Assembly (NCBI RefSeq): GCF_003762835.1
Contig: NZ_RJWA01000010.1
Span: 62,001-126,000 of the forward strand
Source: Micromonospora sp. HM5-17
GTDB taxonomy: Bacteria > Actinomycetota > Actinomycetes > Mycobacteriales > Micromonosporaceae
DNA: 64,000 nt
Direction: 5' to 3'
This document shows positions 13,394 through 48,180 of this stretch, piece after piece (the stretch's first letter is position 1; every line of letters starts with the position of its first letter). Both the position numbers and the translations under genes were made by a program. The notes beneath the pieces were generated by a model, which worked only from the letters and a program-made list of their open reading frames with translations, ran no database searches and had not been told where the DNA came from.

Positions 13394-13786
13394 ATGCGGC
13401 TAACGTTCCTGGGCAAGGAGACAACAGGCGGGCAGAGCCCGACCCTGTACGCGACCGACCGTGACAGCTACGTCGTGCAGGGGTGGCGCGTCAGCGACGC
13501 CGACATCCTCGCCCGCTCAGAAACAGATCAGGAGACCGTTGTTGAGGTACCCGCCAGGCTCATGACCCACCTGGCCAAGAACGGCCTGAACGGGCAGGTG
13601 AAGCGGATAGCGCCGCCGATCGTCCACGTAACCCAGCGGGGGACCTACATCATCCGAGGATCGCGGATGACCGACGCCGCCGCGCTCGCCCAGATGGACA
13701 TCCCGCCGCACGAATCCTGCGTCGAGGTGCCCGCCGAGCAAATGCAGAACCTGGTACAGAACATTGATGAATCCGATCACCAGTAG
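13394..13786 (+). CDS. Small protein in the regulator operon (130 aa)
   Basis: Unrecognised family. It contains two similar halves of about 60 residues: residues 20-45 (SYVVQGWRVSDADILARSETDQETVVEVPARLM) resemble residues 78-110 (TYIIRGSRMTDAAALAQMDIPPHESCVEVPAEQM), so it looks like an internal duplication. Such small proteins often sit beside DUF6879/XRE-DUF5753 genes in actinomycetes. The ATG at 13,394 follows GGGAG; the 3' end overlaps the next gene by 20 bp. Confidence 0.7.
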   Translation: MRLTFLGKETTGGQSPTLYATDRDSYVVQGWRVSDADILARSETDQETVVEVPARLMTHLAKNGLNGQVKRIAPPIVHVTQRGTYIIRGSRMTDAAALAQMDIPPHESCVEVPAEQMQNLVQNIDESDHQ

Positions 13787-22079: not shown

Positions 22080-22109
22080 CGGCACGTCCTCAACGGGAGA
22101 TCCTTGTGC

Positions 22110-27915: not shown

Positions 27916-29601
27916 TCAGGCGGCCGCGCAGTCGAACGCCACGGTCTGCCCGGTCACACCGGTCGGGCACAGCGGCACCGTCACCTTGTACGACACGTAG
28001 CAGCGCTTCACCAGCAGCGTCGCCTGCTCGGTGAACAGGGCGATGTACTCGTTGTCCCGCAGCCGGGTCGAGTCGTACACCGCCGACAGGTCGATGATCG
28101 GCTTGGAGCCCTTGACCCACGTGCCGGGCGCGTAGATCAGGAAGTCGACCGACGCCGGCCACTGGCCGGGCGGGGCCGTACCGCCGAACCCGGCACCGCC
28201 AGCGTTGACGTAGCCGTCCTGCCAGTCCACCACCCACTGCGGGCGCAGGCCCCGCCTGGTGAACCAGCCGTTGATCTGCTCGTCGGTGACGTCGAAGTAG
28301 TTCACCCCGGCGCGGCGGGCCATGTCGGCGCGGATCCACTCCATCAGCCACGCCGGCGCGACCAGCTCCAGCAGCCGCCGCCGGCTCATCCGGTACCGGT
28401 ACCGGTAGTCGGTCGCCGCGAGACTCACCGAGCCGAGAACCGCGGTGGTCGTCTCGTCGCCGTCGACGTCGCCACCCAACGTCAGGGTGAACTCCGTCGA
28501 CTGCGCTGGAGCTGTCGCCATCCGGGCGATCATCCGCGCGTTGATCTTGTGCTCGTGCGCCGTCATCGCCCGGCGCACCACGTCCCGGGTCAGCTCCGGC
28601 CACACCGCGTTCTGCACGATGTCGTGCTCGATCTGCACCCCGTCGACCTCGAGGCGCGTCTCGGCGAACGTCGGGATCGGCACCCGGTACGCCGGCTTGT
28701 CCGTGCCGGCGATGCTGTCGGCCTCGGTCTGCACGAACCCGACCGCGCTGTAGAAGTCGCGGAAGTCGAGGTTGTTCGGGTACCGCAGACCGCCGCGCTG
28801 GACCGTGATGCTGGGCAAGTCCAGGATCCCCTCGGTGGTCTCCAGGCCCTCGCACAGGTCCCACAGCGTCTCGCTGGGCGCGCCCCAGCCGCCGGCCGCG
28901 ACAAGGTTGCCGCCGGACAGCCGCGACTCCGACGCCGCGTACTCCACCACGTCGTAGTCGCTCATCGCCCCGCCGGCGACGAGCGCCTGGTCGACGGGCA
29001 ACTCCACCCGCGCCACGCCCTGCTTGATCCGGGTCCGCACCTGGGCGCCCGGGCCTGGGAACCCGGCCCACTTGTCGTCGAACGCCGCCGCCAGCTCGGC
29101 CACCGAGCTGAACACGTGCCCGTGCGGCACGTTCGGCACGTCCGCCGCCGCCTTGATCACTGCCGACCGTGCGCTGCGGCCGACGCGCGGCTTCGGCTGC
29201 CGCCGGGCCGCCCGGCGGGCCAGGGACGCCACCACCGGCGTCGGCTGAACCGTGGGGGTCGCCTCGGCCGGCTCGCCGTCGCCGGCCGGCTCACCCTCAC
29301 CAGCGGCGGCCGGCTCACCGCCGTCACGGGCGTCGTCGCCCTCGTCGTCACCGCCGCCGTGCACGGCCGCGTCCAAGTCGTCGAGCTCGGCGACCACCTG
29401 CGCTGCGGCCTGCTCGATGGCCGCCTGCTGGTCGCGTACCTGCCGCACGAAAGCCGCCAGCTCGCGCAGCCGCGCCAGACCGGCGGCGTCCAGGTTCGGG
29501 TCGTCCCGGAGCGCGTCGAACGCCGCCACAGCGTCCGTCTCCAGCTGGGACAGGGCATCCAGGTCGAGGCCGTCCAGGCTCTCGGGGATCTCGAAGTCCA
29601 C
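27916..29601 (-). CDS. Major capsid protein with N-terminal scaffold-like region (561 aa)
   Basis: Residues 1-85 are helical (LETDAVAAFDALRDDPNLDAAGLARLRELAAFVRQV) and 85-135 are Glu/Gly/Pro-rich, like a fused scaffold or delta domain. From about residue 150 the HK97-like capsid follows (SGGNLVAAGGWGAPSETLWDLCE, PSITVQRGGLRYP, RVPIPTFAETRLEVDGVQIEHDIVQN, the C-terminal CYVSYKVTVPLC). GTG at 29,601 with GAGGAG before it. The fused scaffold would be removed or kept inside during maturation, probably by the protease-like part of the MuF fusion. Confidence 0.9.
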   Translation of the reverse strand: MDFEIPESLDGLDLDALSQLETDAVAAFDALRDDPNLDAAGLARLRELAAFVRQVRDQQAAIEQAAAQVVAELDDLDAAVHGGGDDEGDDARDGGEPAAAGEGEPAGDGEPAEATPTVQPTPVVASLARRAARRQPKPRVGRSARSAVIKAAADVPNVPHGHVFSSVAELAAAFDDKWAGFPGPGAQVRTRIKQGVARVELPVDQALVAGGAMSDYDVVEYAASESRLSGGNLVAAGGWGAPSETLWDLCEGLETTEGILDLPSITVQRGGLRYPNNLDFRDFYSAVGFVQTEADSIAGTDKPAYRVPIPTFAETRLEVDGVQIEHDIVQNAVWPELTRDVVRRAMTAHEHKINARMIARMATAPAQSTEFTLTLGGDVDGDETTTAVLGSVSLAATDYRYRYRMSRRRLLELVAPAWLMEWIRADMARRAGVNYFDVTDEQINGWFTRRGLRPQWVVDWQDGYVNAGGAGFGGTAPPGQWPASVDFLIYAPGTWVKGSKPIIDLSAVYDSTRLRDNEYIALFTEQATLLVKRCYVSYKVTVPLCPTGVTGQTVAFDCAAA

Positions 29602-32099: not shown

Positions 32100-32323
32100 C
32101 CCCCGTCGACAATCCGCCGGCGCCGCTCGACGTCGGCCGGGTCGCACACGTGCGCGAAGTCGGTCACGGGCGGCTGGTCGCCGTCCCACAGATCACCCGA
32201 CCAGCCGCAGGTGCGGCACTCGTGCCACCGCAGCCGGGTGCAGCCCTTGCCGCGCCCGGACCGCTGGCACGCCATCCCGGAAAGCGCCACCAGCTCCGGG
32301 GCGGGCGCGGTTGGGGCGGTCAT
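32096..32323 (-). CDS. Small zinc-finger-like protein between portal and MuF (75 aa)
   Basis: CQRSGRGKGCTRLRWHECRTCGWSGD and a final HVCDPADVERRRR supply a Cys4/His zinc motif. ATG at 32,323 in ATGA overlap with the portal gene; its stop overlaps the MuF start. Role unknown, perhaps assembly. Confidence 0.65.
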   Translation of the reverse strand: MTAPTAPAPELVALSGMACQRSGRGKGCTRLRWHECRTCGWSGDLWDGDQPPVTDFAHVCDPADVERRRRIVDGG

Positions 32324-34170
32324 GTCGGCACCCGCTCTCCGTACACCGTGGCCATCAGGTGTTCGCGCAGCTCGGCCGGGTCGTGCTTCGCCCCGGTCAC
32401 CAGCAGCCGGCCGACGTACCCGGTCAGGGCGGCGGTCAGCTTCTCCGCGTCGACCCCGAGCCGCGACGCGACGTGCGGCACCGTCGCGAACGCGCCCTGG
32501 AGCAGCCGGGGCACGGACACCGGCGTCGCCTGCTGCACGGTGTGCAGCTCCCACGGCGCCAGGTGGTCGTGCCGGTACCGCTGGCGGCCGACCGCCCGTT
32601 TCCCGGCCGTCTCCAACGCCCGCAGCACCAGCGCCTCGCACGCGGCGATGAACGCCTCACCCGGCTCGGCCGCCGAGGCGGCGATCGCGTTCCGCTCGGG
32701 CGGGCCGCGGTCCTCGGTGTCGCCGGCCGGCGGCTCGCTGACGGGCGGCTCCTCCTCGGCGGGTGGGGTGGCCGGCGGCGCCGGGGCGAGAGCAGCCGGG
32801 TCGACCGTGACAGCCACGCCGGCAACCTGTAGGAGCCGCTGCACGAGCAGCGGGCCGGCGGCCGGCACGGTACGCACGATCTCCAGCAACCGGCGCAGCT
32901 CCCGCTCCTCGTCGGTCGGCTTGTCCTCGTCACCGAATCCGGTCTCGCGGCGCAGCGCATCGCCGGACAGCTCCCCGGCCGCGTACAGGTCCTTCGCGTC
33001 GGCGCCCTTGTCCGGGGTCTGCGTCAGCTCGCTAGTGTCGTACCAGACCACCCACCGCTTCGGGTCGTCGACGACGCCCTCCAGCGCCGGCCACAGCATC
33101 TGCTGGGTCAGCGCCGAGCAGAACAGTTCCAGCTTCGACTCGACGTGGTACTTGATCGTCGCCTCGTCGGTCATCCAGGCGCCCCAGTGGTTCGCCTGGG
33201 TCATGCCGAGCAGCATCTCCGGCGGGGCGTCGAGGCCGAGCGCGAGCCGCCGGATCGCCCCGTCGAGCATCGACGGAACCGCCGCCGACAGCTCGGTGGC
33301 GAACGACAGCAGCCGGGCCTTCTCCAGGTGCTCGGCGGGGCCCTGCACGACGATCGGCACGAGGGCGGCCACCGAGTCGCGGTCCTTCACCGCGGTGGTC
33401 ATCGCCTCGGTCAGCGTGGCCAGGAACGACGACACCCCATCCTCGGAGTTCTCTTCCTGCTCGGCGGCCGTGAATGACAGTTCGTTGGGCAGCAGCAGAA
33501 TCCCGGCCCCGGCGAGCCGGGAGTCGATCTGCGACTGCACGTACTGGGTCAGCCGTTCGATCAGCCGCAGCACCCGCCGGTTCGCCTGCACCTGCGACCT
33601 CGGCAACGCATGCCGCCGCGGGCTCGGCACCCAGATCCGTACGATGACCGTCTCCTCCGGGACGAGCTCGCGCGGCCCGGCGCCCTGGTCGAGCACGTAC
33701 GTTCCGGACTTCTCCGTCAGCTCGTCGATCGACGCGATGAACCAGGTCTCCCGGTCGGTGGCGTTCCCGTTCTCGTCGCGCTCGAGTTCACCGATCAGGT
33801 AGCACTCGCCGGGCACGCCGAGCTGGATCCCGGCGTCGTGCAGCAGCTCGGCCTGCTTCGCCGGCCCGCCGAGCAGCGTGTCGTTGACGCCGGCCGGTGC
33901 CTCGTTCGGGGACTCGACGGGGCGGCCCTCGTCGTCGATCTGCGTGATGTACAGCCGGGTGCGGCCCATCGCCTTGGCCACTAGGTCGACGACGTAGGCC
34001 AGCTCGCCGCACTCCTCGTAGTGCCGCCAGGCTTCCTCCTGCCACTCCTGCTTAGTGACCTTCCGGATGGTGCCGCTGGACTCGTAGCGCATCTTCGCCG
34101 CGGAGGCGACCACGGCGGTCGCCTTACCCACCGCGCTGCTCGCGTTCGGCTTCGTGCCCCACCACGCCAT
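32320..34170 (-). CDS. Portal protein (616 aa)
   Basis: Ring protein at the DNA entry vertex. KWEEAWRHYEECGELAYVVDLVAKAMGRTRLYI-type N-terminus, RIWVPSPRRHALPRSQVQANRRVLRLIERLTQYVQSQIDSRL (helical stem), SMLDGAIRRLALGLDAPPEMLLGMTQANHWGAW (the classic portal motif) and a C-terminal crown rich in Pro/Glu. It lies in the expected place between terminase and MuF, although two plus-strand genes now separate it from the terminase. Confidence 0.92.
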   Translation of the reverse strand: MAWWGTKPNASSAVGKATAVVASAAKMRYESSGTIRKVTKQEWQEEAWRHYEECGELAYVVDLVAKAMGRTRLYITQIDDEGRPVESPNEAPAGVNDTLLGGPAKQAELLHDAGIQLGVPGECYLIGELERDENGNATDRETWFIASIDELTEKSGTYVLDQGAGPRELVPEETVIVRIWVPSPRRHALPRSQVQANRRVLRLIERLTQYVQSQIDSRLAGAGILLLPNELSFTAAEQEENSEDGVSSFLATLTEAMTTAVKDRDSVAALVPIVVQGPAEHLEKARLLSFATELSAAVPSMLDGAIRRLALGLDAPPEMLLGMTQANHWGAWMTDEATIKYHVESKLELFCSALTQQMLWPALEGVVDDPKRWVVWYDTSELTQTPDKGADAKDLYAAGELSGDALRRETGFGDEDKPTDEERELRRLLEIVRTVPAAGPLLVQRLLQVAGVAVTVDPAALAPAPPATPPAEEEPPVSEPPAGDTEDRGPPERNAIAASAAEPGEAFIAACEALVLRALETAGKRAVGRQRYRHDHLAPWELHTVQQATPVSVPRLLQGAFATVPHVASRLGVDAEKLTAALTGYVGRLLVTGAKHDPAELREHLMATVYGERVPT

Positions 34171-34619: not shown

Positions 34620-37163
34620 ATGCTCACCGGCGTGGTGACGGACCCTCAGCGAGATCTAGTGATCGATGGCCTTCTAGCAAGGACCGAAGCCCGACGTGGT
34701 GCGGCGATGGCACTGCTTAACCCCGTCGAGCAGCGGGACCTGGGCCAATTCTTCACCCCTCGCGTGGTGGCCGAGCGCATCGCCGCAGAGCCGAGCCTGC
34801 CAAAAAGTGGCGTGCTCAGGGTGCTGGATCCGGGTGCCGGGTCCGGATCGTTGTCGGCCGCGTTGGTTGCCCGGGTGCTGCGAGAGCGGCCCGCTCTAAC
34901 GGTAGGGGTCACTGCGGTTGAACTGGCATCGGGGCTGCATGACACGCTGCGTCAGACCTTGGAAGACTGCCAGGAGACTGCGCGCGCCCTTGGCGGCCAG
35001 TTCAATTACGAGCTCGTCGCGGCGGATTTCATTCCATGGGCCGCCGCCCGGGTCTCCGGCGTGCTCGACCTGGTAGGTGAGCAGCCACGGTTCGACCTGG
35101 TGATCCAGAACCCCCCGTACCGGAAGGTAGCTCGCAGTTCGGCGGTGCGCCGTCACCTTCAATCTGTCGGATTAGACGTTCCGAACCTCTACGCGGCATT
35201 CCTCGCGCTCGGCGTGCACCTTCTCACCGAGGGTGGCCAACTCGTAGCCATCACCCCTCGTAGTTTCGCTAATGGCACATACTTCCGGCAATTTCGCAAG
35301 CAGTTCTTTTCCTTACTGGGCGTCGACCGTATCAACGTTTTCCAGGAACGAGGCGCACTGTTCGCCGATCTATCGGTGCTGCAAGAAAACATCATCTTGA
35401 CAGGCACGCGGGCTCGCCGCTCAGAGAAAGTCACCATTGTCACCTCACGCGGCTACGCTGACCCAACCCACGAGCGGCTAGTCACCTACGAGGACATCAT
35501 CCGGCCAGATGATCCCGAATCGTTCCTCCATATCCCTACAGACGTCGAGGACGATCGAGCGGCCGATATCGTCGCCGAACTCCCTGCCACGCTGGCCGAT
35601 CTCGGTCTCAACGTGTCAACCGGACGGGTCGTCGACTTCCGCGTCAAGGATGCGCTGCGAGCCATGCCGACTGCTGACACAGTGCCGTTGATCTATCCTG
35701 GTCATTTACAGAACGGTCGGGTGAATTGGCCACTGCCTGCGTACCGCAAGCCAAACGCCATCGTCGCCGACGCATCGACCGCCAGCCTGTTGCTACCCGC
35801 TGGTTATTACGTCCTAGTGAAGCGGTTCTCGGCCAAGGAGGAAACCAGGCGCGTGGTCGCCTCCGTATATCGGCCCGCCGACGTCCCGGCAGATCGGGTC
35901 GCGTTCGAAAACCACCTCAACGTCTTCCATCGTGATGGCAACGGCTTGGACGAGCCACTTGCGGTCGGTCTGGCGATCTGGCTCAACTCCAACGTGCTGG
36001 ACACCCACTTCCGCCAGTTCAGCGGCCACACGCAGGTCAATGCAACCGATCTGAGAAACCTTCGCTACCCTGATGCCGCGCAGCTGCGCCGCCTCAGCGA
36101 GAACGTCCGACCAGGCGAGTGGCCAAGCCAAGATGAGATCGACGCGCTTGTGCTGCAGCACGTTCTTGGCGGGGCCGACACGACGGAACAGGGAGGCACG
36201 GTGCCGCAGGACCAGGTAGCAGAGTCAGTGCAGCAGGCCCGCCAGTTGCTCGGTCGGCTCAACTTCGACGCAGAGCGCAGCAACGAGCGGTCAGCGCTGG
36301 TGCTGCGCGCCCTGCTCAACCTACTGCCCGACCAGCCGTGGGAAGCCGCTCAGAACCCCATGTTGCGCACCGTCGAGATCATGGACTTCCTACGGCAGCA
36401 CTACGGCCGCGATTACAAGCCCAACACGCGGGAGACGATCCGCAGGCAGACGTTGCACCAGTTCGCCGCTGCCGGCCTGGTTCTACAAAACCCCGACCGG
36501 CCCGACCGACCTGTCAACTCTCCTCGCTGGTGCTATCAGATCACCGACCGAGCTGTCGCTCTAATTCGGACCTTTGGCACACCCCGGTTCGCCGACGAGC
36601 TTCGTGCGTACCTGGCCGATCTCCCAGGCCAGCTGGAAGCCTACGCGGCGGAGAGGACCATGCGACGCATCCCGGTAACCCTCCCCGGAGGGCAAGAGAT
36701 TACCCTCAGCCCGGGCGGCCAAAACGAACTCCTCGACGCCATAGTCAAAGACTTCTGTAGCTACTTCACTCCGGGCGGGATTGCCCTATACGTCGGTGAC
36801 GCCGATGAGAAGTGGGCATTCTTCGACAACGATGCGCTCAAAGCGCTCGGCGTCACAGTTGACAAGCACGGCAAGATGCCCGACCTCGTCGTGTACATGG
36901 AAGACAAGAACTGGCTCGTTCTTCTAGAGGCAGCGTCCAGCCACGGACCCGTCGACGCCAAACGCCATGCCGAGTTGCAGACTCTCTTCGCGGGCTCCAC
37001 GGCCGGACTGGTCTTCGTCTCCTGTTTTCCCAGTCGCAAGGAGATGCGGAGGTACCTGCAGGAAATCTCGTGGGAGACCGAAGTATGGTGCGCCGACAAC
37101 CCAACGCACATGATCCACTTCAACGGCGAGCGGTTCCTCGGCCCATACCTGGCCCAGCCGTAG
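34620..37163 (+). CDS. Single-chain restriction-modification enzyme: Eco57I-like methyltransferase fused to BsuBI/PstI-like endonuclease (847 aa)
   Basis: N-terminal half: GQFFTPRVVAERIA (about 42-55), SAM motif DPGAGSGSL (70-78), NPPY (164-167), then an Eco57I-type target-recognition region. C-terminal 150 residues are a BsuBI/PstI endonuclease (from about 699: GGQNELLDAIVKDF, LYVGDADEKW, KMPDLVVYMEDKNWLVLLEA, SHGPV, TEVWCADNPTHMIHFNG), with PD 754-755 and E near 770 as the PD-(D/E)xK site. These activities are normally two proteins. Codon use is less GC-rich than its neighbours and it is opposite to the late operon, so it is a cargo gene. ATG at 34,620; a GTG at 34,635 is possible. Confidence 0.88.
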   Translation: MLTGVVTDPQRDLVIDGLLARTEARRGAAMALLNPVEQRDLGQFFTPRVVAERIAAEPSLPKSGVLRVLDPGAGSGSLSAALVARVLRERPALTVGVTAVELASGLHDTLRQTLEDCQETARALGGQFNYELVAADFIPWAAARVSGVLDLVGEQPRFDLVIQNPPYRKVARSSAVRRHLQSVGLDVPNLYAAFLALGVHLLTEGGQLVAITPRSFANGTYFRQFRKQFFSLLGVDRINVFQERGALFADLSVLQENIILTGTRARRSEKVTIVTSRGYADPTHERLVTYEDIIRPDDPESFLHIPTDVEDDRAADIVAELPATLADLGLNVSTGRVVDFRVKDALRAMPTADTVPLIYPGHLQNGRVNWPLPAYRKPNAIVADASTASLLLPAGYYVLVKRFSAKEETRRVVASVYRPADVPADRVAFENHLNVFHRDGNGLDEPLAVGLAIWLNSNVLDTHFRQFSGHTQVNATDLRNLRYPDAAQLRRLSENVRPGEWPSQDEIDALVLQHVLGGADTTEQGGTVPQDQVAESVQQARQLLGRLNFDAERSNERSALVLRALLNLLPDQPWEAAQNPMLRTVEIMDFLRQHYGRDYKPNTRETIRRQTLHQFAAAGLVLQNPDRPDRPVNSPRWCYQITDRAVALIRTFGTPRFADELRAYLADLPGQLEAYAAERTMRRIPVTLPGGQEITLSPGGQNELLDAIVKDFCSYFTPGGIALYVGDADEKWAFFDNDALKALGVTVDKHGKMPDLVVYMEDKNWLVLLEAASSHGPVDAKRHAELQTLFAGSTAGLVFVSCFPSRKEMRRYLQEISWETEVWCADNPTHMIHFNGERFLGPYLAQP

Positions 37164-38581: not shown

Positions 38582-38664
38582 TCATCCAAGATCATTTGCG
38601 CCAGTTGATTATGGAAGGTCAAAGACGTTGCGTCCCTGCGGGAGCCCGGTCCACGATCGACCGC

Positions 38665-40002
38665 ATGCCTACGCTCCGAAACCGCCGGCTTGAACAGCTC
38701 CTCGGTGGAGCAATCGACGAGACGCTGACCTACGCGCAGGTGAAGGGCCTCATCCCGCACACCGCCGAAGGCCCAGACCTGGACTTCAAGCGCGACACCT
38801 ACACGAGCAGCGACCGAGACCGAAAGGCCCTGTGCACCGATGTCGCCGCACTCGCGAACGCCAACGGCGGCATCCTCGTCCTCGGCATGGACGAGGACGA
38901 GCAAGGCCGCGCGGCAACCGATACCGGCGTCGTCATCAGCGACGACGAGCGGCGCCGGCTCCGACAGACAGTCGTCGGCAACATCCAGCCGACACCGACG
39001 TTCGACATCCTCCCCATCGAGGATCCCGATCGTCCAGGTACTGGCTTCCTCGTCATCTGGGTCGCGCGGTCGGCGACGGCGCCACACGCCTACGTCGCTC
39101 AGAACAAGTCGATGCTGTACCCGAAACGGATTGGTACTGAGACTGCCTGGTTGTCGGAGAGCGAAGTGGCCGAGGCGTACCGGGCACGGTTCGCCGGCTT
39201 CGCAAGCCGGATCGAGGAAGCAGCCCGGATCGAAGCGGACTTCGTTCAACGCCTCGCACCAGACGAGCTGTTCGTCGTCGTCACCCTCGTCCCGGACCTG
39301 CCAGGGTCTGCCACCATCAACAGCGCCGCGCTGAAGGCGTTCCAGATGCGTAACGCGAGCTGTGAAGTGGGCGCCTTCGGTATCCCAGTGGGCAAGTTCC
39401 ACCGATCGACAGTGCGCCGACGCTGCTTGGTAGGCACCGCATCGCTCGAGAGAAGCAAGCCGTACTCGCGTCTTGCGTGCGAGCTGCATGAGACCGGCAG
39501 CGGCGTGTTCGGCTGCGCGAAGATCGAGTCGCGTCCAGATGTCAAGGATCTGAAGGTCAAGCTCGCTGACAACCTGTGGCTCACACTTACCATCGGCACC
39601 GGCCTCAACCTTCTCGCCCGCCATGCGCGTGATCAAGCCGCAGCTGGCGGTCTGGCCACCGTCAGGACCACCATCTGGCCGGTCACGTCTGAGGTTCCAG
39701 TCTCGCTGGTCTCCAACGTCGGTTGGCGAAATGAGCCGGTCGGCGGCGAACTGGTAAGCGAGCCGCCGGTCGCCGAGACCGTCGCCGACATCGACGACTT
39801 GAGCGCTGGAGGGGCAGGTTTGGCAGCGGCAACCCACCGACTCGCTAGCGAACTGTTCCAGGCGTTCGGGGCAGCGGAGGCCGAAGGCGTGACCCCAGAG
39901 GGAGCAATCCGCCTTCCCTACTGGCATCAGGGCTGGCATGCCGAGATAAGCCGCTGGGCCGGGAGCTCTGGGGTTGAGGTGCTTCGGGAGGCCAACGCCT
40001 GA
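38665..40002 (+). CDS. AlbA_2 (Schlafen-like) ATP-binding domain protein, cargo gene (445 aa)
   Basis: Residues 32-80 (HTAEGPDLDFKRDTYTSSDRDRKALCTDVAALANANGGILVLGMDED) are the AlbA_2 signature: acidic/basic DFK motif, then the conserved ANANGG loop. The rest is a mixed alpha/beta C-terminus without a recognised domain. Such proteins appear in phage-defence islands and as prophage cargo. It is on the opposite strand, just beyond the terminase gene, and appears to have cut the promoter at 38,565. ATG at 38,665 with no clear ribosome binding site; ATG at 38,596 would extend it by 23 residues. Confidence 0.75.
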   Translation: MPTLRNRRLEQLLGGAIDETLTYAQVKGLIPHTAEGPDLDFKRDTYTSSDRDRKALCTDVAALANANGGILVLGMDEDEQGRAATDTGVVISDDERRRLRQTVVGNIQPTPTFDILPIEDPDRPGTGFLVIWVARSATAPHAYVAQNKSMLYPKRIGTETAWLSESEVAEAYRARFAGFASRIEEAARIEADFVQRLAPDELFVVVTLVPDLPGSATINSAALKAFQMRNASCEVGAFGIPVGKFHRSTVRRRCLVGTASLERSKPYSRLACELHETGSGVFGCAKIESRPDVKDLKVKLADNLWLTLTIGTGLNLLARHARDQAAAGGLATVRTTIWPVTSEVPVSLVSNVGWRNEPVGGELVSEPPVAETVADIDDLSAGGAGLAAATHRLASELFQAFGAAEAEGVTPEGAIRLPYWHQGWHAEISRWAGSSGVEVLREANA

Positions 40003-40010
40003 TCTACCTG

Positions 40011-41408
40011 TCATCGCGCGTCCGCCTGCAGGCGAGCCCGGTGACCGAGTGGCGACGCAACGACGGCCCGCCGAGTTTCCTTGCTGCGCAGGTACGTCAC
40101 CCCGTGCACGAGCGCGTCCAGCCGGTCCGGCGAGTCCCCGGACTCCGGCGTCCAGGTCGTCAGCTGGTCCTCTAGCGCCGGGAACGCGCCGACGTGGTGC
40201 ACCCGGGGCGGGTCGACCTCGTACCGGGCCGCGACCGGCTCCGCCCGGACCCGCTTGCTCGCCCGGGGCTGCACCACGTCGATCGGCGGGTCGCCGCCGG
40301 GCAGCAGTCCCTCCCGCTGCATCGCGATCCAGGCGTCGACGAGGATGTCCCGCATCCACACCGACGAGCCCTCGACGATCACCACGTCGGCGTCGACATC
40401 GATGTAGCACTGCCAGATCCGGCGGCCGGCCGCCATGCCGGCGATCTTCATCGACCGGTCGGCCAGCACGTAGTGGTCGCCGTCCTCGCCCCGGCCCACC
40501 GCGACGATGCCCGTCTCGTCGCTCGTCTCCGACACCGTGTCGGCCGGGTCGACCGACACCACGGTCCGGACCAGGGGCGGCACGTCGTCCTTGTCGACCC
40601 GGCCGGCCTCGATCCATGCCGACTTCCACAGCGCGCCCTCGACGTCGGTCAGCAGCTCGGCGTCCAGCTCCTGCCGGCCGAGCCGGGTGCCGCCGTACTG
40701 CTCCAGCAGCTCCTCCAGCGCCTCCGGGCTCAGGTTCGCCGCGTTGTCCAGCGTCCGGCCGCGCGTGATGACCACCCGGGGGCGCCTGGACCGGGCCTTC
40801 TGTTTCGCCGCCCGCGTCAGCAGCTTCTTGATGTGCGGCAGCGGCTTCGGGGTCGTGCTGATGACCATGCGCGGGTTCTCGGCCTCGCGCATGCAGAACC
40901 AGAGCATGTCGAACACGCCCTGCGCCGTCTGCACCGGCCAGGCGGCGTACTCGTCGCACCACACGCCGTCGAAGTCGTAGCCGCGCAGCACGTCGGGGTC
41001 CTGCGCGCCGAAGCCGCGGATGATCGACCCGTTGCGGAGCATCACGTAGGGCTCCGACTTGTTGAACGTCGCCACCTCGCGAGGCGGAATGACCGCGAGG
41101 AGCCCGGCCCGCCGGGCGGTGAAGCAGACGTTGTAGACCTCGCGGTGCGTCTTCGCGACGACCGCATAGTGCCCGCCCGGCCGCGCGGCGGCCCACTTCC
41201 GGACCGTCTCCGCGCCGGTGCGGGTCTTGCCGAAGCCGCGACCGGCGAGCAGCATCCAGATCCGGTACCAGGCGGGCTCCAACTGCTCTGGCCGGGCGTG
41301 CCGGGGCCAGTCGTAGCGCAGGTTGCCCTGCACCTCCGAAACCACGCGCAGGTAGGCGGCCAGCTCGGCGTCGGACATCAACGCCGGATCCGGGTACGCC
41401 AGCAGCAT
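40011..41408 (-). CDS. Terminase large subunit (465 aa)
   Basis: ATP-driven DNA packaging motor and nuclease. Walker A GRGFGKT (56-62), Walker B DGVWCDEYAAW with catalytic Glu 153, and the RNase-H-like nuclease starting with VVSVDPAD (Asp 288) and ending with the DALVHGVTYL region. Full length for the family. Three bp separate it from the upstream membrane gene; nine bp separate its stop from the convergent AlbA_2 gene. Confidence 0.95.
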   Translation of the reverse strand: MLLAYPDPALMSDAELAAYLRVVSEVQGNLRYDWPRHARPEQLEPAWYRIWMLLAGRGFGKTRTGAETVRKWAAARPGGHYAVVAKTHREVYNVCFTARRAGLLAVIPPREVATFNKSEPYVMLRNGSIIRGFGAQDPDVLRGYDFDGVWCDEYAAWPVQTAQGVFDMLWFCMREAENPRMVISTTPKPLPHIKKLLTRAAKQKARSRRPRVVITRGRTLDNAANLSPEALEELLEQYGGTRLGRQELDAELLTDVEGALWKSAWIEAGRVDKDDVPPLVRTVVSVDPADTVSETSDETGIVAVGRGEDGDHYVLADRSMKIAGMAAGRRIWQCYIDVDADVVIVEGSSVWMRDILVDAWIAMQREGLLPGGDPPIDVVQPRASKRVRAEPVAARYEVDPPRVHHVGAFPALEDQLTTWTPESGDSPDRLDALVHGVTYLRSKETRRAVVASPLGHRARLQADAR

Positions 41409-41825: not shown

Positions 41826-41971
41826 CAGGCCGCCACCAGCCACACGCACCCGACGGCGGCCAAGCCCAGCAGCACCGACCCCACCGCCACACACCACACC
41901 GCCCACCGGGGGGCGCGTACCTCGACCACGATCCACACCTGCCCGTCATTCCTGCGGCGCCGACTCGCCAT
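41822..41971 (-). CDS. 49-aa single-membrane-segment protein
   Basis: ATG at 41,971, TGA at 41,822-41,824. A basic N-terminus (SRRRRN) and one membrane helix (WAVWCVAVGSVLLGLAAVG). It overlaps the terminase small subunit by 26 bp and the next gene by 4 bp. The tight coupling supports a real gene. Confidence 0.6.
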   Translation of the reverse strand: MASRRRRNDGQVWIVVEVRAPRWAVWCVAVGSVLLGLAAVGCVWLVAAW

Positions 41972-42569
41972 CGGTCGCCTCCTCCGTGTCGTCGGCGTCG
42001 CCCGGCCCGTCGTCGCCGCTGTCCGGGCTGGACAGGCCGGCGCGGGACTGCGCCTCGGCGATCAGCGCCCGGAAGAACTCGGCCCGCTGCTCCTCACTCA
42101 TCTGGCTGACCTCGGCCTGGATCGGGCCGCCGTCGGGCCCGGTGTGCGCGGTCGTCGAGTCCGGCAGCCCGAGGGCCAGCCGCTCGACCCGGGTCGCCAC
42201 TTCCAGCCACCGCGCGATGTCGTTGGGCGTCAGCGCCGCCGGGTCGAGGGACTGCAACCGGGCGACGATCTTCGCCTGCAGCGCGGACGCGATGCGGGCG
42301 TGCCGCTCGGCCATGTCCCGGCGCCGCTCGGCCAGGCCCTCGCTGTAGAGGCGGTCCTGCTCGCGGTCCCACGCCTGCGCCCGCTGCACCCACCGCCAGG
42401 TGCTCGCCAGCTTGTGGAGGTAGTCCCGGGATTTGTGGACCTCGGCGGCGGCCTTCGCGACGGTGCGGGTGCGACCGAGGTCCCGGTACAGGGCGAAGTA
42501 CGAGTACGCCTTCTCGGGCTCGTCGTCCTGCCTGTCCCACGGGAGGACCGCCTGCTCGGTCACGGTCAC
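41946..42569 (-). CDS. Terminase small subunit-like protein (207 aa)
   Basis: Residues about 20-65 (YSYFALYRDLGRTRTVAKAAAEVHKSRDYLHKLASTWRWVQRA) form the DNA-binding helix-turn-helix, followed by an oligomerisation coiled coil (RRRDMAERHARIASALQAKIVARLQ) and an acidic tail. It sits directly upstream of the large subunit module, as expected. Confidence 0.8.
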   Translation of the reverse strand: MTVTEQAVLPWDRQDDEPEKAYSYFALYRDLGRTRTVAKAAAEVHKSRDYLHKLASTWRWVQRAQAWDREQDRLYSEGLAERRRDMAERHARIASALQAKIVARLQSLDPAALTPNDIARWLEVATRVERLALGLPDSTTAHTGPDGGPIQAEVSQMSEEQRAEFFRALIAEAQSRAGLSSPDSGDDGPGDADDTEEATDGESAPQE

Positions 42570-42644: not shown

Positions 42645-42932
42645 TCAGTGGCCTGCGGGTCGGGCGCTGGGCATCGGGGGTCGGGCGATCGCCGCGTTGC
42701 CGTACATCAGGGCGTCGTCGAGGGCGGTGAGCACCAGCGAGGATTCGCGGCCGGGCGGCAGGCTGCGCATCGCCTCGGCCATGAGCACCTTCACCGCGGC
42801 CCGCCACCGGGCGTGCCGCTCGGCGGTGGCCAGGTCGGCGGGTGGGTGGTAGTCGCAGCGTCGGTCGAGTTCGGCGCGCTGCCGCTCGTCCAGGCCGGCG
42901 TACAGGTCGTTGTCGGGGGCGGTGCTGGTCAT
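42645..42932 (-). CDS. Acb2/Tad1-like hairpin protein, candidate anti-CBASS sponge (95 aa)
   Basis: Residues 26-84 follow the Acb2/Tad1 hairpin pattern: CDYHPP, then a helix (TAERHARWRAAVKVLMAEAM), LPPGRESSLVLTALDDALMYGNAAIARP. The GRE-SL-LT-L-(D/E)-A-MYxNAAIAR segment is the best-conserved stretch of that family, whose known members trap cyclic nucleotides and block CBASS or Thoeris immunity. The ATG at 42,932 has AGGAGGA before it and a 35-bp dyad directly upstream, at the head of the terminase operon. Activity is inferred from the motif only. Confidence 0.75.
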   Translation of the reverse strand: MTSTAPDNDLYAGLDERQRAELDRRCDYHPPADLATAERHARWRAAVKVLMAEAMRSLPPGRESSLVLTALDDALMYGNAAIARPPMPSARPAGH

Positions 42933-43054: not shown

Positions 43055-43966
43055 TCAGCTGGCCAGGTAGTCGGCGGCCAGCAGTTCCAGGGCGCGCCAC
43101 CGCTGGTCGGCGGGGACCTCGCCCTTGCGGACCATGCGGTCGACGGCCCGGGCGAGCACGGCGCCGGCGTCGGCCGGCATCGAGCGGGTGCCGAGGATCG
43201 TCTCGATGGGGACGAGGCGTCGAGCGTCGACGGGCTCGCTGGTGTCTGGGTCGAGCCAGGCGTCCCGCAGCTCGTCGAGGTGCCGCTCGAACACCGCCAG
43301 GATGAGGCCGAGGGCGGTGGCTACGTTGCCGACGTTGTGGGCGCCGTGGGCGGTTGCGAGGGCGTCGAGGGTGGTCTCGTAGTCGGCGTAGGCGGCGAGC
43401 CAGCGGGCGTCGGCTTGGACGAGCTTGCGGGCCTCGTCGAACGAGGCGCGGGCGGCGTCCAGCTCGTGGGGCAGGAACACGAGCTGGACGGTGGCGAAGT
43501 CGAGGTTGGCCTCGCTCAGGCCCTCCAGGTCGACCTGGGCGAGCAGGTCGAGCTGCTTGTCGTCGAGGCCGGAGTAGGCCCGCCAGTCGACGTCGTCCAG
43601 CTCCTCGTACAGCTGCCGCAGCGTGGCCGGGTCGTCCTCGCCTTCGATCGCGTTGTGGGACAGCTGCAGCGCGACCTGCCGGGCGCGGGACAGCGGCTGG
43701 TCGACCACGATGACGTCGACCTGCTCCAGGCCGACCTCGCGGGCGGCCATGATCCGGTGGTTGCCGGACAGCACCACCATCCGGCCGGTGGCCTGGTCGT
43801 TCCACACTAGCGGTGTGCTGGTGAGCGCCCCGTCGCGGCGTATGTTGGCCACGAGCCGGTCGAACACCTCTTTGCGCATGAACCGCGCGTTCACCTCGAC
43901 GAGCGTGAGCTCGCGCGGGTCGACCGTCTCGCGGCGCAGGTTCAGCGGTCCCTCGTCGTCGCTCAT
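43055..43966 (-). CDS. ParB-like (ParB/sulfiredoxin fold) phage protein (303 aa)
   Basis: N-terminal ParB nuclease-like domain: VEVNARFMRKEVFDRLVANIRRDG, PLVWNDQATGRMVVLSGNHRIMAAREVGLEQVDVIVV (GNHR box) and VALQLSHNAIEGEDD. The C-terminal half is helical and acidic. ATG at 43,966, ATGA overlap with the modification gene. Genes of this kind often sit beside phage DNA-modification enzymes, so the pair probably acts together on phage DNA. Confidence 0.85.
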   Translation of the reverse strand: MSDDEGPLNLRRETVDPRELTLVEVNARFMRKEVFDRLVANIRRDGALTSTPLVWNDQATGRMVVLSGNHRIMAAREVGLEQVDVIVVDQPLSRARQVALQLSHNAIEGEDDPATLRQLYEELDDVDWRAYSGLDDKQLDLLAQVDLEGLSEANLDFATVQLVFLPHELDAARASFDEARKLVQADARWLAAYADYETTLDALATAHGAHNVGNVATALGLILAVFERHLDELRDAWLDPDTSEPVDARRLVPIETILGTRSMPADAGAVLARAVDRMVRKGEVPADQRWRALELLAADYLAS

Positions 43967-46065
43967 CGCGTGTCCTTTCCGTGGCGGCGCTTCCACTCCG
44001 TCAGCGCCTCGTCGAGGGTCCAGCCGCCGAGCGGGCCGCCGTACTGGAGCTGGTATCGGTGGATGCCGTCGGCGGCCGGCTCGCTGCGCTTCTGCAGCTT
44101 GACGCCGGGGATGCCGCGCCCGTACTTCGCCGAGTTCGGGTTGTTGGTGAACGCGGTCGTCGACCAGGCGGTGAGCCGCTTGCTGAGCGAGCGCTGGAGC
44201 AGCAGTTGGGCCTCCCGGGAGGCGGCGGCCATGACGATCAGCTTCGCCAGCCTGCGGTATCGGGTCCACGACACCGGGAAGTCGCTCATCAGGTACGCCG
44301 TTGACGGGTCGTACTTGGGCGGCAGGTAGGCGAACGCGCCGATGATGCGCCCGTCGACGCTGACGCCGCAGGCGAGCAGGGGAGAGCCCGGCAGGATCGT
44401 CTTGGACATGAACTGGCTCCGGATGGCGGAGAACTGGCCGCCGGTGAGCACGTGGATGGCCATGCGGTCGCCGAGGTCCTCGTTGGGCCCGATCTTCGGC
44501 ATGAGGATCGGTGTGACCTGCTGGGCGGGCCGGACGACCCGGCGCGGGCCGGAGGAGGCGTAGACGTAGATCGGCAGGCCGCGGTTGCTGGTTTGCACGA
44601 CGCCGCGCAGCCACGGCCGCAGCTCGTCCCGGGCGATGTGCAGGCCGAGGATCCAGTGTGGCCGGTCGAGGACCGCGGCGATGATTTCCTCCTTGCCGTC
44701 CTCGTCCAGCTCGTTGTACGTCGGCGCCGGCCAGTCGAAGTAGTGGTCTATGGCCGCGAACTGGCTCTCGTAGTCGCCGGTGTTGTGCATGGCGAAGCCC
44801 TCGCCGATGTACGTCCCGGTCGTCGTCGTGATCGACTGGATGGGTCGCTCGCCGAGTGGTTCCACCGCCACGACCCGCACCCGGCAGTTGCCGCGCGACC
44901 GGACGCTCATCTGCTCGATGTCGAGCGCCGCGAGGCGCGAGATCAGCCGTTCGGGGCGCAGCGTGCCGAGCGCCCGCAGGATCGTCGGGAAGCCTCCGGC
45001 GACCTCGATGCCCAGGACTCCGCTCGGCCGCAGCTTCGCGCCGGCGTCGAAGCCGTGCCGCTTCAACAGGTCGATCACCTTGTCGGCCGTCGGTCCGGGC
45101 CGCTGCGACAGCTGAAGCTTCGACGCCTGCCCAATGTGGATGGAGCCCTCGCCGTCAAACATGCCGGCCAGCCACCCGGCCTCGTAGGTGCGGGCCTCCT
45201 CCCAGGTGTCGAGCAGCCGCAGCACGTACGGTGCCTTCTCCAGCAGCTGGTCGGCCCGCACCCAGCGGCGTTTGCCGCCGCTTGTCTTGCTGTCGTACTG
45301 GTCGGCCAGCCATGGGTGGTCGGCGGTGCAGACGATCGAGGTGCCGTCAGCGAGGTGCACCCGCAAGCACTCCTTCACTGCCGGCTCCGACCGGGTGACG
45401 ACGGACCGCCGCCAGCGCCGCAGCCGCATCCCGTCAGGTGGGTACTCGTCGAACGCGAGGAGCCGGTCGCCGGGCCGCAGCTCGCCGCACGGCACCCACC
45501 GCAGGTCCTCGGTCAGCAGCCGCTCGTCGGGTGCGAGGCAGTAGAACGGCGGGAACATCGCCACCGGGGCGTCGGCCGGCACCACGTCGCGTAGGTAGTC
45601 CCGCACGTCGCCGCAGTAGTACGAGCCGAGCCGCAGGGTCAGCGCCTCCAGCTTGGCGACCGTCTTGGCGTGCATGGTCGGGAACTGGCCGATGGTGGCC
45701 CGCACCATCCGCTCGTAGTAGACCCCGGACCGGCCGACGTACTGGAGGAACCGGGTGCCGAGCATCAGCGTGGCGAGCGTGTGCGTCGGCGTGGTCAGGT
45801 ACGGCTCCAGCCAGGCCAGCTGGTCGCGGTGCTCCTCCTTGAGCTGGTAGTCGAGGGGGCGGCCGGCGAGCCACCAGCCCAACGCCGATGAGTACGCCTG
45901 GACGTCGTTGCCGTGGATGGTGCGGTGTTCGCCGGGGCGGGCGTGCAGCGTCCGCTCGATCGTGAAGTTGCCGGAGCAGCCGACGTAGAGGTCGGTGTCG
46001 GGCCACGAGTCGGCGTGCTCGTAGATGATGCTGCGCAGGTCGGCTGGGATGGAGCCGTGGAACAC
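43963..46065 (-). CDS. DNA-modification-like protein with intein: methyltransferase-like N-terminus, GNAT/Mom-like C-terminus (700 aa precursor)
   Basis: Exteins total 447 aa. Residues 20-75 (DLYVGCSGNFTIERTL, HGNDVQAYSSALG) resemble the SAM region of D12-type adenine methylases, and FPPFY plus TGDYE, rejoined after splicing, would be the catalytic motif. The C-terminal extein (LLACGVSVDGRIIGAFAYLP, YRRLAKLIVMAAAS, TTAFTNNPNSAKYGRGIPG) resembles GNAT acyltransferases such as phage Mu Mom. Relatives are, to my knowledge, called putative antirestriction methyltransferases. GTG at 46,065. Coupled to the ParB-like gene, preceded by a tRNA-Gly gene and a 35-bp dyad. Confidence 0.7.
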   Translation of the reverse strand: MFHGSIPADLRSIIYEHADSWPDTDLYVGCSGNFTIERTLHARPGEHRTIHGNDVQAYSSALGWWLAGRPLDYQLKEEHRDQLAWLEPYLTTPTHTLATLMLGTRFLQYVGRSGVYYERMVRATIGQFPTMHAKTVAKLEALTLRLGSYYCGDVRDYLRDVVPADAPVAMFPPFYCLAPDERLLTEDLRWVPCGELRPGDRLLAFDEYPPDGMRLRRWRRSVVTRSEPAVKECLRVHLADGTSIVCTADHPWLADQYDSKTSGGKRRWVRADQLLEKAPYVLRLLDTWEEARTYEAGWLAGMFDGEGSIHIGQASKLQLSQRPGPTADKVIDLLKRHGFDAGAKLRPSGVLGIEVAGGFPTILRALGTLRPERLISRLAALDIEQMSVRSRGNCRVRVVAVEPLGERPIQSITTTTGTYIGEGFAMHNTGDYESQFAAIDHYFDWPAPTYNELDEDGKEEIIAAVLDRPHWILGLHIARDELRPWLRGVVQTSNRGLPIYVYASSGPRRVVRPAQQVTPILMPKIGPNEDLGDRMAIHVLTGGQFSAIRSQFMSKTILPGSPLLACGVSVDGRIIGAFAYLPPKYDPSTAYLMSDFPVSWTRYRRLAKLIVMAAASREAQLLLQRSLSKRLTAWSTTAFTNNPNSAKYGRGIPGVKLQKRSEPAADGIHRYQLQYGGPLGGWTLDEALTEWKRRHGKDTR
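44782..45540 (-). other. Intein with LAGLIDADG-type endonuclease (253 aa)
   Basis: Residues 176-428 of the precursor. Block A: C176 LAPDERLLTEDLRWVPCGELRPGDRLLA. Block B: GTSIVCTADHPWL with the TxxH histidine. One clear LAGLIDADG-like motif AGWLAGMFDGEGSIHIG (296-312). Block F/G: VEPLGERPIQSIT ... GEGFAMHN with His-Asn at 427-428 and Thr 429 as the +1 nucleophile. Insertion after MFPPFY, inside the host protein's catalytic motif, is typical for inteins. Confidence 0.93.
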
Positions 46066-46095
46066 GCGTCACCACCTTCCCCCGTGGCGGCGTCG

Positions 46096-46167
46096 AGCGC
46101 CGGCCAGGGCTCGAACCTGGGCCTCCGCCGTGGAACGGCGGCGTGCCACCAACAGCACTTCCAGCGC
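46096..46167 (-). tRNA. Prophage tRNA-Gly (anticodon UCC)
   Basis: Cloverleaf by eye: acceptor GCGCTGG with CCGGCGC (one G-T pair), D stem GTGC/GCAC with GG in the loop, anticodon stem CCGCC/GGCGG with loop GTTCCAC, T arm CCAGG-TTCGAGC-CCTGG, discriminator T as in bacterial Gly tRNAs. 72 nt, CCA not encoded. It reads GGA/GGG codons and lies 31 bp before the modification gene. Confidence 0.8.
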
Positions 46168-46209: not shown

Positions 46210-46277
46210 CTCGTGCCCGGGAGAGCAGGGAGGCCGCCTTTCGATCACTTTGTGGCTTGGCGTGCATCGCCGTAGCT

Positions 46278-46312
46278 CTGTAGGGCCGCAATGGTCTACT
46301 GTGACCGCACGG
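46278..46312. promoter_or_regulatory. 35-bp dyad element, copy 6
   Basis: CTGTAGGGCCGCAAT then CTACTGTGACCGCACGG: the left half with inner GCCGCAAT is well kept, the right arm is weaker. It lies 31 bp before the excisionase-like gene. Confidence 0.6.
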
Positions 46313-46342
46313 CCAGCGTGGATCATGAAAGGTGGGAGAGTC

Positions 46343-46534
46343 GTGGAGCGGGATTACACCTACGCCGAGGCCGCGGAGAAGCTGCGCATCACCGAGGGCA
46401 CGCTGAGGCGCTGGGTGTCCAAGGGCCGCATCTCCTGTCACCGGCTGGGCAGGCTGGTCAGGTTCACCGACGAGGACCTGGCGAGCGCGTACCGCCGGTC
46501 GCCGGCGTTGCCGACCACCACGCGGCGGCGCTGA
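46343..46534 (+). CDS. Excisionase-like helix-turn-helix protein (63 aa)
   Basis: YTYAEAAEKLRITEGTLRRWVSKGRISCHRLGRLVRFTDEDL is the MerR-type winged-helix pattern of phage excisionases (HTH_17). The GTG at 46,343 with GGTGGGAG is preferred; an ATG at 46,325 would add six residues. Divergent from the modification operon and convergent with the integrase, as expected for a recombination directionality factor. Confidence 0.8.
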   Translation: MERDYTYAEAAEKLRITEGTLRRWVSKGRISCHRLGRLVRFTDEDLASAYRRSPALPTTTRRR

Positions 46535-46609: not shown

Positions 46610-47836
46610 CTACCCGACAGCACCCCCCACGGTGCTCAGCTTGTCGACGCCGAGGAAGCCGCCAACGATCCGGCGGACCGGCTCGTGGTGCTTCCGGGTG
46701 GCGTGCACGTACACGTTCAGCGTCGTCGTGACGCTCTTGTGCCCGGCCATCGTCTTGAGCGCTGCCAGGTCCACACCCTCGGTCGCGAGCAGCGTCAGCA
46801 TCGAGTGGCGCAGCCCGTGCATCGTCATCCGGCGGGGCAGTCCCTTCTCCCGCGCCAGGTCGCGGATCTTCACCCACCGGCCCTCGTAGAAGTCCTCGTA
46901 CCGCCAGTGGTTGCCGCGCGGGGCGACGAACACGAACTCGCGGCCTGGCTGCGCGGCGCGTTCGGCGACCAGCTGCATCACCTGGTGCGGCAGCGGCACC
47001 TCCCGGTAGCCCTGCTGCGTCTTCGGCTTGGGCTCCACCACCCACCTGCGGTTGACCTTCCGCAGTACCTGCACGATCTCGATCGTGCCGAGCCTGGGCC
47101 GGACTGCCCGGGGCGGCAGCGCGCTCACTTCGCCCCACCGCAGGCCGGAGGCGAGCTTGGTCAGCAGCAGGTCCGCTGCCTCCGGGTCGACCTCGTACGC
47201 CGCCTCGAGGAAGATCCTCGCCTCGTCGGGGCTTTCCAGGATGTCCCGCTCATGCCGAGCCGCCTCGGGCAGCGGTAGCCCGTCCATCGGGTTGTACGTG
47301 CGCAGCGCTGGCTCCTCGTCCTCGCCCGGCAGGCAGGCGGCCCGGAAGATCGGCACGATCGTCTCGCCTCGGATGTTCGCGATCGTCTTCGGGGACAGTC
47401 CGGCGTCCAGCAGGGCGATCTGCCACTCGCGCATCTCGCGTCGGGTGATCGCGGCGATCGGCCGGTCGCCGAGCCGCGGGAAGACGTGCTTCTCCAGCCG
47501 CTCGAGGTATTTCCGCTTCGTCTCCGGGTGCGGCTTGATGAGGGTGCTCAGCCAGTCGAGCGCGTACTCCCGGAACGTGACCTGGCGCTCCGGCTCGGGC
47601 GTGACTGGAGCGGGTCCGGTACCGGCGGGTGCGAGGTAGCCGAAGCCGTGCTCGTGCAGCTGCTCGGTGGGCGGCATGTGGTCGCCGTTCGCGTCGACGA
47701 GCGCCTTGAAGCGCTTGGCGTCAGTGTGGGTGTCGAACTGCCTGCCGTCCCAGTCGCCGGTGCCGCCGATGCGCCACTTCACCCGCCACCGATGCGTCTT
47801 GCCGTCCTTGTACGTGCGTTTCTCGATCGATGCCAC
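46610..47836 (-). CDS. Tyrosine integrase (408 aa)
   Basis: N-terminal arm-binding domain (ASIEKRTYKDGKTHRWRVKW), SAM-like core-binding domain (FREYALDWLSTLI ... LERLEKHVFPRLGDRPIAAIT), and catalytic domain with SGLRWGEV (Arg), MHGLRHSML (His-x-x-Arg), GHKS (His) and NVYVH (Tyr nucleophile). GTG at 47,836 follows an AGGAGC ribosome binding site; the longer frame would run into the 35-bp dyad. It integrates the phage at the tRNA-Leu gene 260 bp away. Confidence 0.93.
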   Translation of the reverse strand: MASIEKRTYKDGKTHRWRVKWRIGGTGDWDGRQFDTHTDAKRFKALVDANGDHMPPTEQLHEHGFGYLAPAGTGPAPVTPEPERQVTFREYALDWLSTLIKPHPETKRKYLERLEKHVFPRLGDRPIAAITRREMREWQIALLDAGLSPKTIANIRGETIVPIFRAACLPGEDEEPALRTYNPMDGLPLPEAARHERDILESPDEARIFLEAAYEVDPEAADLLLTKLASGLRWGEVSALPPRAVRPRLGTIEIVQVLRKVNRRWVVEPKPKTQQGYREVPLPHQVMQLVAERAAQPGREFVFVAPRGNHWRYEDFYEGRWVKIRDLAREKGLPRRMTMHGLRHSMLTLLATEGVDLAALKTMAGHKSVTTTLNVYVHATRKHHEPVRRIVGGFLGVDKLSTVGGAVG

Positions 47837-47901
47837 TGCTCCTGGTCCTCCACGTGAAGCAGGCGGCCGGATCGCCTCAAAGCCATGCCGCCCGCGCGCA
47901 C

Positions 47902-47936
47902 CTACATGCGCAGCAGTGGGACCGTAGCCGTACATC
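47902..47936. promoter_or_regulatory. 35-bp dyad element, copy 7
   Basis: CTACATGCG on the left, GTAGCCGTACATC on the right; the right arm is well conserved. Lies 66 bp before the integrase start, so the same factor could control lysogeny. Confidence 0.55.
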
Positions 47937-47983
47937 CTGCTGGAGCGCAAAACGCGCCCACGAGCCCGTCGGATGGACGGCTC

Positions 47984-48011: not shown

Positions 48012-48096
48012 TGGCGGCAGCGAACCCAGAAACGATCAAGGCCGCTGACCCGAGTTCTGCCAGGTCAACGGCCTAATTTCTTCGTACCCTGATTGG

Positions 48097-48180
48097 TGTC
48101 CGAGGGGGGACTTGAACCCCCACGCCCTATACGGGCACTAGCACCTCAAGCTAGCGCGTCTGCCATTCCGCCACCCGGAC
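48097..48180 (-). tRNA. tRNA-Leu (anticodon GAG), integration target
   Basis: Acceptor GTCCGGG with CTCGGAC, anticodon stem CTAGC/GCTAG with loop TTGAGGT, long variable arm and T arm GGGGG-TTCAAGT-CCCCC; CCA is encoded at 48,094-48,096. The gene is intact on the chromosome side of the integrase, so attR core probably lies in its 3' half (about 48,094-48,130). The partner attL is outside the window. Confidence 0.93.

Follow-up and report, generated by a model that had tools for sequence, protein, structure and literature searches.

A phage tRNA-Gly, a Dam-like/GNAT fusion protein and a ParB-like protein form a conserved cassette with a possible role in tRNA-dependent DNA modification

We analyzed a 64,000-nucleotide stretch of DNA from Micromonospora sp. 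HM5-17 (contig NZ_RJWA01000010.1, positions 62,001 to 126,000), here called the window, which contains a prophage carrying an enzyme gene interrupted by an intein, a ParB-like gene, and a transfer RNA (tRNA) gene for glycine. The enzyme gene, 46065..43963 (-), is 700 codons long, starts with GTG, and encodes a Dam-like domain fused to a GNAT domain. A previous reading made from the sequence alone had placed this gene at 43963-46065; these coordinates are correct, with the minus strand as coding strand. ARAGORN predicts a tRNA-Gly(TCC) at 46167..46095 (-), on the enzyme gene's strand and 30 bp upstream of it. This tRNA gene was missed by the sequence-only reading, and it points to a possible transfer of glycyl groups from Gly-tRNA. 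The ParB-like gene, 43055..43966 (-), whose start codon ATG overlaps the enzyme's stop (ATGA), matches phrog_7405 (6.6e-69) and ParB_N (2.5e-4). These matches and the surrounding prophage genes bear out the ParB-like neighbor and the phage setting that had been proposed. Mycobacterium phage Jeon contains a tRNA-Gly at the equivalent position, and a ParB-like match was found after the enzyme gene in 124/127 loci of relatives.

The N-extein (45541..46065 (-), residues 1-175) includes the Dam-like fold through FPPFY, which forms residues 171-175, and matches PF22555 (1.3e-98). It is followed by an intein of 253 residues (44782..45540 (-), C176..N428) with one LAGLIDADG motif, and then by the start of the C-extein (44491..44781 (-), residues 429-525), which opens at T429 and holds the remainder of the Dam-like domain. 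As had been proposed, the intein lies directly after FPPFY in the Dam-like motif IV and carries its splicing blocks: the nucleophile C176, the TADH and LAGMFDGEGSI blocks, the terminal H427-N428, and T429 at the +1 position, with an exact gap in three homologs. In the alignment, intein-free relatives have FPPF-F-AGDYE, FPPF-W-GGGYE, or FPPF-D-VGGYE at the insertion site. Their reading frames continue across the site without interruption, which shows the insert to be exact rather than a chance open reading frame. The TIGR01445 model (intein_Nterm) matched with an E-value of 3.9e-4 and 21.3 bits, below its cut-off of 24.5, and NF038136, an intein-containing NCBIfam model, matched residues 175-429 (3.4e-14) at a score far under its whole-protein cut-off. 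Among the inteins matched, that of the terminase gene in Mycobacterium phage LinStu and related phages came closest, with 36% identity across residues 160-429 (E 3e-34). Only one LAGLIDADG motif was seen, indicating that the homing part is small. Inteins commonly sit in conserved active-site motifs. Judged by its sequence, this intein is an ordinary new member of its class and it is predicted to splice.

Pfam models for both parts of the enzyme scored well above their cut-offs of 27 bits: DAM-like-phage1 (PF22555) with 330 bits (1.3e-98) and GNAT-phage-like (PF22559; 43978..44469 (-), residues 533-696) with 192 bits (8e-57). The structure predicted for an intein-free relative, L089, had a predicted local distance difference test (pLDDT) value of 92.4. 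Residues 1-253 of this model superimposed on Escherichia coli Dam (2g1p) with Z 13.9 and a root-mean-square deviation (rmsd) of 5.2 over 196 aligned residues, and residues 278-428 superimposed on the crystal structure of Mu Mom (8bv8) with Z 10.9. Taken alone, the GNAT part had a pLDDT of 94.1 and matched 8bv8 with Z 10.8 and an rmsd of 3.0 over 140 aligned residues. The C-terminal GNAT fold proposed by the sequence-only reading is thus upheld by the model of this relative (pLDDT 94). The similarity to Mom that it also proposed holds for the fold (8bv8 Z 10.8) and does not extend to the sequence, and acetyltransferases match equally well. We dropped homology to Mom at the sequence level, keeping it as a likeness of fold, after hhalign of A5 against Mu Mom gave a probability of 1.8 and PF25680 matched 0/51 members at E 0.01. 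A sequence link to Dam was rejected as well (hhalign probability 0.4, though FPPF was placed on CDPPY). With the full model, a Foldseek search of pdb returned almost exclusively GNAT enzymes among the first 50 matches listed. No FemX or Aat entries were among the structural matches listed, which excludes nothing, and a search by sequence for solved structures of relatives returned nothing credible.

Dam-type enzymes are recognized by (D/N/S)PP(Y/F/W) at motif IV. The 61 rows inspected here contained FPPF, YPPF, HPPF, CPPF, FPPT, FLPT, and also FAPT/FMPF, and 0/61 had D, N, or S at the first position. Classical amino-group methylation is unlikely because motif IV never opens with one of these residues, and on this sequence evidence plain methylation by the Dam-like domain appears unlikely too. 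This weakens the proposal that the protein joins two chemistries, a methylase and a GNAT enzyme. The Dam-like part has invariant C30-S31-G32, D54, and D153, and may therefore retain the ability to bind a cofactor or nucleoside. In the GNAT part, the strictly invariant residues include G323, Y338, D342, K355, L356, T383, S392, K394, Y395, and R397. The GNAT domain is fused to the Dam-like domain in 51/51 members of alignment A3, and among 396 genomes of the phylum GNAT-phage-like was found in one, the window's own. The family is already named by domain in Pfam, and phage records label it methyltransferase or hypothetical protein; the Pfam and phage records seen for DAM-like-phage1 and GNAT-phage-like state no function, mechanism, or tRNA partner. 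As a separate observation, the structure that best matches the GNAT domain lies in a 695-aa phage 'amidoligase' (BFVD A0A8S5SJK3; template modelling score 0.83 on the query), and the domain may therefore occur with another partner. Amidoligase-GNAT proteins (phrog_2443) gave weak matches in 3/396 genomes.

We examined the linkage between the tRNA and the enzyme gene in 127 loci, which came from 80 viral contigs (of 99 confirmed), 44 genome loci, and 3 phage records. A viral scan with the intein-bearing protein gave no match; the 99 relatives came from a scan with the intein-free alignment, and 80 of them were retained. The loci formed 61 clusters at 80% identity, which absorbed the few contigs common to both collections. 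Using the covariance model R1 and a stem scan, we found a tRNA-Gly-like element at most 700 bp upstream and on the same strand in 87/127 loci (34/61 clusters), at a median distance of 72 bp from the gene. The training sequences of R1 were 37 of these tRNAs, with that of the window among them, so it matches them by construction. For this reason the counts from ARAGORN, which are independent of R1, are given separately: in the same zone it called 58 tRNA-Gly and 3 tRNAs with odd anticodon loops, covering 23/61 clusters. From the density of tRNAs elsewhere in the loci, 0.6 tRNAs of any kind would be expected near the gene. The sole ARAGORN call for another amino acid in this zone was a Ser call in L075 that overlaps a mini-tRNA found by R1. 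The stem scan added L064, L072, and L087 to the 84 loci from R1, and its remaining matches were left out of the counts as probable chance matches. Matches to Met, Gln, or Leu tRNAs (L035, L047, L049, L064, L124) and a 19.9-bit match in L109 were excluded before counting.

In a further 12 loci, adding nine clusters, the element was elsewhere: after the ParB gene in six (L048, L050, L053, L059, L085, L124), more distant in five (L011, L044, L052, L061, L130), and on the opposite strand in one (L031). These downstream, distant, and reversed placements suggest that the element acts in trans and do not fit a cis regulator. Five of the ten plasmid-borne relatives listed were examined and four had the element, beside the gene in two and about 2.4 kb upstream in two. 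The fifth, in a prophage of a Salmonella plasmid, is ambiguous since its tRNA-Gly belongs to a mixed array of tRNAs some 5 kb upstream. A second set was fetched with the GNAT domain alone, keeping 80 of 240 GNAT-phage-like loci; it comprised 77 loci outside the 127, many of their contigs being common to the first set. R1 matches of at least 36 bits were present in 25/47 loci searched in this set. Tandem tRNA-Gly elements were observed upstream of the gene in two loci (L231 3245-3405; L242 3955-4103).

The stems of the phage tRNAs covary. Across 37 sequences, 96.7% of cells were paired, 16/20 pairs had changed on both sides, and 0/500 shuffles equalled this, while pairs 1-72 and 2-71 were invariant. 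G1, C2, G71, C72, and U73 were kept in 99/99 distinct phage tRNAs; we take the glycine-identity positions to be G1-C72, C2-G71, U73, and C35-C36. We compared other positions with 32 cellular tRNA-Gly from the same phylum, three of them the host's own. U33 was retained in 68/99 phage elements and 32/32 cellular tRNAs, and the D-loop GG in 49/99 and 32/32, both counted with a rough parser seeking CC at 35-36. T54-T55-C56 was retained in 59/99 phage elements compared with 31/32 cellular tRNAs. The largest differences were in the T-stem, where G49-U65 occurred in 0/91 phage elements and 30/32 cellular tRNAs and G51-C63 in 3/91 and 31/32 (Fisher 2e-24, a value that overstates independence because the phage sequences are related, although the direction is plain). 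The window's tRNA-Gly follows this pattern with C49-G65 and A51-U63, whereas host tRNAs have G49-U65 and G51-C63; it scored 74.1 bits with R1, the best match genome-wide, and its 3' CCA is not encoded. The host genome's own tRNA-Gly have the anticodons TCC, CCC, and GCC. The elements of Gordonia phages were rejected by ARAGORN and scored 41-44 bits with R1; their acceptor stem and CCA are preserved and their T loop is atypical. Mini-tRNAs of 66 nt, apparently with no D arm and retaining an encoded CCA end, occur in a distant group. As read from their sequences, the phage tRNAs keep glycine identity yet lose features used in translation and in binding elongation factor EF-Tu, as is the case for a dedicated non-proteinogenic tRNA. 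In Staphylococcus aureus, three tRNA-Gly that lack G18G19 and carry A51-U63 are considered to evade EF-Tu and to supply peptidoglycan synthesis (PMC4052509).

We lean toward the view that the dedicated tRNA-Gly, the Dam-like/GNAT fusion, and the ParB-like protein are a three-part phage DNA-modification cassette in which Gly-tRNA is the donor and a DNA base the acceptor. The chances seem to us even that, more specifically, the translation-incompetent phage Gly-tRNA is a dedicated donor for glycylation of a DNA base, and that the Dam-like domain, having no methyl-transfer chemistry, presents the base to an aminoacyl-tRNA transferase of GNAT fold. Excision of the intein would restore the FPPFYTGDYE motif in a spliced protein of about 447 aa. 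The host glycyl-tRNA synthetase would charge the phage tRNA, and the weak EF-Tu determinants would exclude it from translation. With Gly-tRNA as donor, the GNAT domain would then move glycine to a base of phage DNA, bound and presented by the Dam-like domain, and the ParB-like partner would probably aid DNA targeting. The product would be N6-glycyl-adenine or its isomer N6-carbamoylmethyl-adenine, and it may protect the phage DNA from restriction.

CoA-binding acetyltransferases and Mom are among the best matches of the GNAT fold, and a review has Mom using an acyl-coenzyme A (acyl-CoA) such as glycyl-CoA (PMC7824862). This would fit a Mom-like chemistry in which the GNAT domain modifies adenine with acyl-CoA and the tRNA is no more than a linked passenger or supplements codon usage. 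We regard this as unlikely, since a passenger offers no reason for glycine specificity and adjacency in 34/61 clusters or for the loss of U33 and EF-Tu determinants, and the host already possesses tRNA-Gly with the TCC, CCC, and GCC anticodons. GNAT toxins such as AtaT2 target Gly-tRNA-Gly (PMC11559606), and the phage tRNAs keep their acceptor features; the GNAT domain could thus acetylate Gly-tRNA itself to halt host translation, with the phage tRNA as decoy, substrate, or protected isoacceptor. Such a toxin leaves the Dam-like domain (51/51 in A3) and the ParB-like partner (124/127) without a role, and a protected isoacceptor must serve translation, yet the phage tRNAs lose U33, the D-loop GG, and the EF-Tu pairs. 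TacT and AtaT are stand-alone GNAT proteins with an antitoxin, whereas here the GNAT domain is fused and a ParB-like gene follows (antitoxin models as such were not searched). We doubt this explanation. The same source also describes phages that provide tRNAs against tRNA-targeting immunity and names FaRel2, which targets tRNA-Gly and tRNA-Thr (PMC11559606). A counter-defense isoacceptor that replaces damaged host tRNA-Gly and is unrelated to the enzyme is nonetheless very improbable, given the lost translation features, the constant linkage to a single enzyme gene, and the finding of no other tRNA type in the near zone save the ARAGORN Ser call. Lastly, the position on the same strand at a median of 72 bp in most loci would suit an element acting in cis on the enzyme mRNA, as a leader or a processing signal. 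Elements after ParB (6 loci), more distant (5 loci), or reversed (L031), together with the retained U73 and encoded CCA, make this the explanation to which we give the least credence.

Several observations count against a Gly-tRNA donor and a DNA acceptor. No tRNA was found in 27/127 loci when the fetched DNA was searched with R1, ARAGORN, and the stem scan, and one further locus had no upstream DNA. In the second set, the group L213-L247 (e.g. L214), which has a YVPCCGNFT variant, is without a recognizable tRNA-Gly nearby. Three loci (L080, L081, L087) encode Dam-like proteins without GNAT, that of L087 ending as a ParB-like C-terminus, and still have the element just upstream; the tRNA link is thus not strictly to GNAT. 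The tRNA of the window is itself nearly canonical (U33, TTC loop, D-loop GG) and atypical only in its T-stem pairs. The GNAT part fits ordinary acetyltransferases as well as Mom (Z 10-11.5), so an aminoacyl-tRNA enzyme cannot be recognized from the modelled fold alone. The argument for DNA as the putative acceptor draws only on the ParB-like partner and on the likeness of the two folds to Dam and Mom.

If a Gly-tRNA donor for DNA modification is correct, aminoacyl-tRNA joins S-adenosylmethionine, sugar-nucleotides, acyl-CoA, and adenosine triphosphate (ATP)-driven ligation as a donor, and many phage tRNAs regarded as 'codon supplement' or degenerate deserve re-examination. It would also offer a possible route to the origin of the glycine-like group in Mom-type adenine. 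N6-glycyl-adenine and N6-carbamoylmethyl-adenine are isomeric (+57 Da), and a Gly-tRNA donor gives the same added mass as glycyl-CoA. The system occurs in isolated laboratory phages of Gordonia and Mycobacterium smegmatis and is therefore directly testable. We found neither tRNA-dependent DNA modification nor a tRNA-enzyme cassette in the open-licence literature; preprints and most subscription journals were outside this scope and a prior report is possible. The new part would be the tRNA partnership and the use of aminoacyl-tRNA as a DNA-modification donor, provided that the donor role is right.

The window sits within a 6.17-Mb genome, and the closest relatives of the enzyme gene are from Micromonospora, pointing to an actinobacterial host. 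The prophage around it is of siphophage type, with genes for a tape measure (10414-13416), major tail (21132-22085), major head (27916-29601), portal (32320-34170), large terminase (40011-41408), and small terminase (41946-42569) protein. Beyond the tRNA-Gly are an excisionase-like gene (46250-46534) and an integrase gene (46610-47950), beside which ARAGORN predicts a tRNA-Leu(gag) at 48094-48180 (-). L008, L088-L091, and L112 also have a tRNA-Leu(gag), at 3.5-5.8 kb from the homolog of the enzyme gene; it is likely the attachment site of a Micromonospora prophage family. Between the ParB-like and small terminase genes is a gene for a small protein with an Acb2/Tad1 hairpin domain (42645-42932 (-), PF24729 3e-12), a possible anti-CBASS/anti-Thoeris factor. 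A fusion of an Eco57I-like methylase with a BsuBI/PstI-type restriction endonuclease is encoded in the prophage at 34620-37163 (+), on the strand opposite the structural genes, and a Schlafen/AlbA_2-domain protein, possibly defense cargo, at 38596-40002 (+), opposite the terminase genes.

Four known systems resemble the cassette in part. The CmoX/CmoY hypermodification of phages also joins glycine to phage DNA; it differs in using a cytosine carboxymethyl handle, an ATP-dependent ligase, and free glycine, with no tRNA donor described in the available part of the source (PMC12783734). Dam-type N6-adenine methyltransferases (E. coli Dam, T4 Dam) share with the window family the overall fold of residues 1-253, a motif-I-like loop, and D54, whereas their DPPY becomes F/Y/H/C-PPF, FPPT, or FLPT here and the window family is fused to GNAT. 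Mom of phage Mu (PF25680; 8bv8), whose product is N6-carbamoylmethyl-adenine, is alike in its GNAT fold, its phage origin, and the proposed acyl-type modification of DNA adenine; it differs in having no sequence-profile relation to the window family. We know of no Dam-like domain or ParB-like partner for Mom, and no tRNA was found in 33 Mom loci (143 kb), nearly all of which are near-copies of Mu Mom. A GNAT-like fold also occurs in FemX and Aat, and 0/51 members of the window family had a FemAB or Aat Pfam match at E 0.01. Like the proposed cassette, FemXAB of Staphylococcus has a transferase fed by a non-proteinogenic tRNA-Gly with weak EF-Tu determinants (PMC4052509); its acceptor is a peptidoglycan precursor, whereas the acceptor here would be a DNA base.

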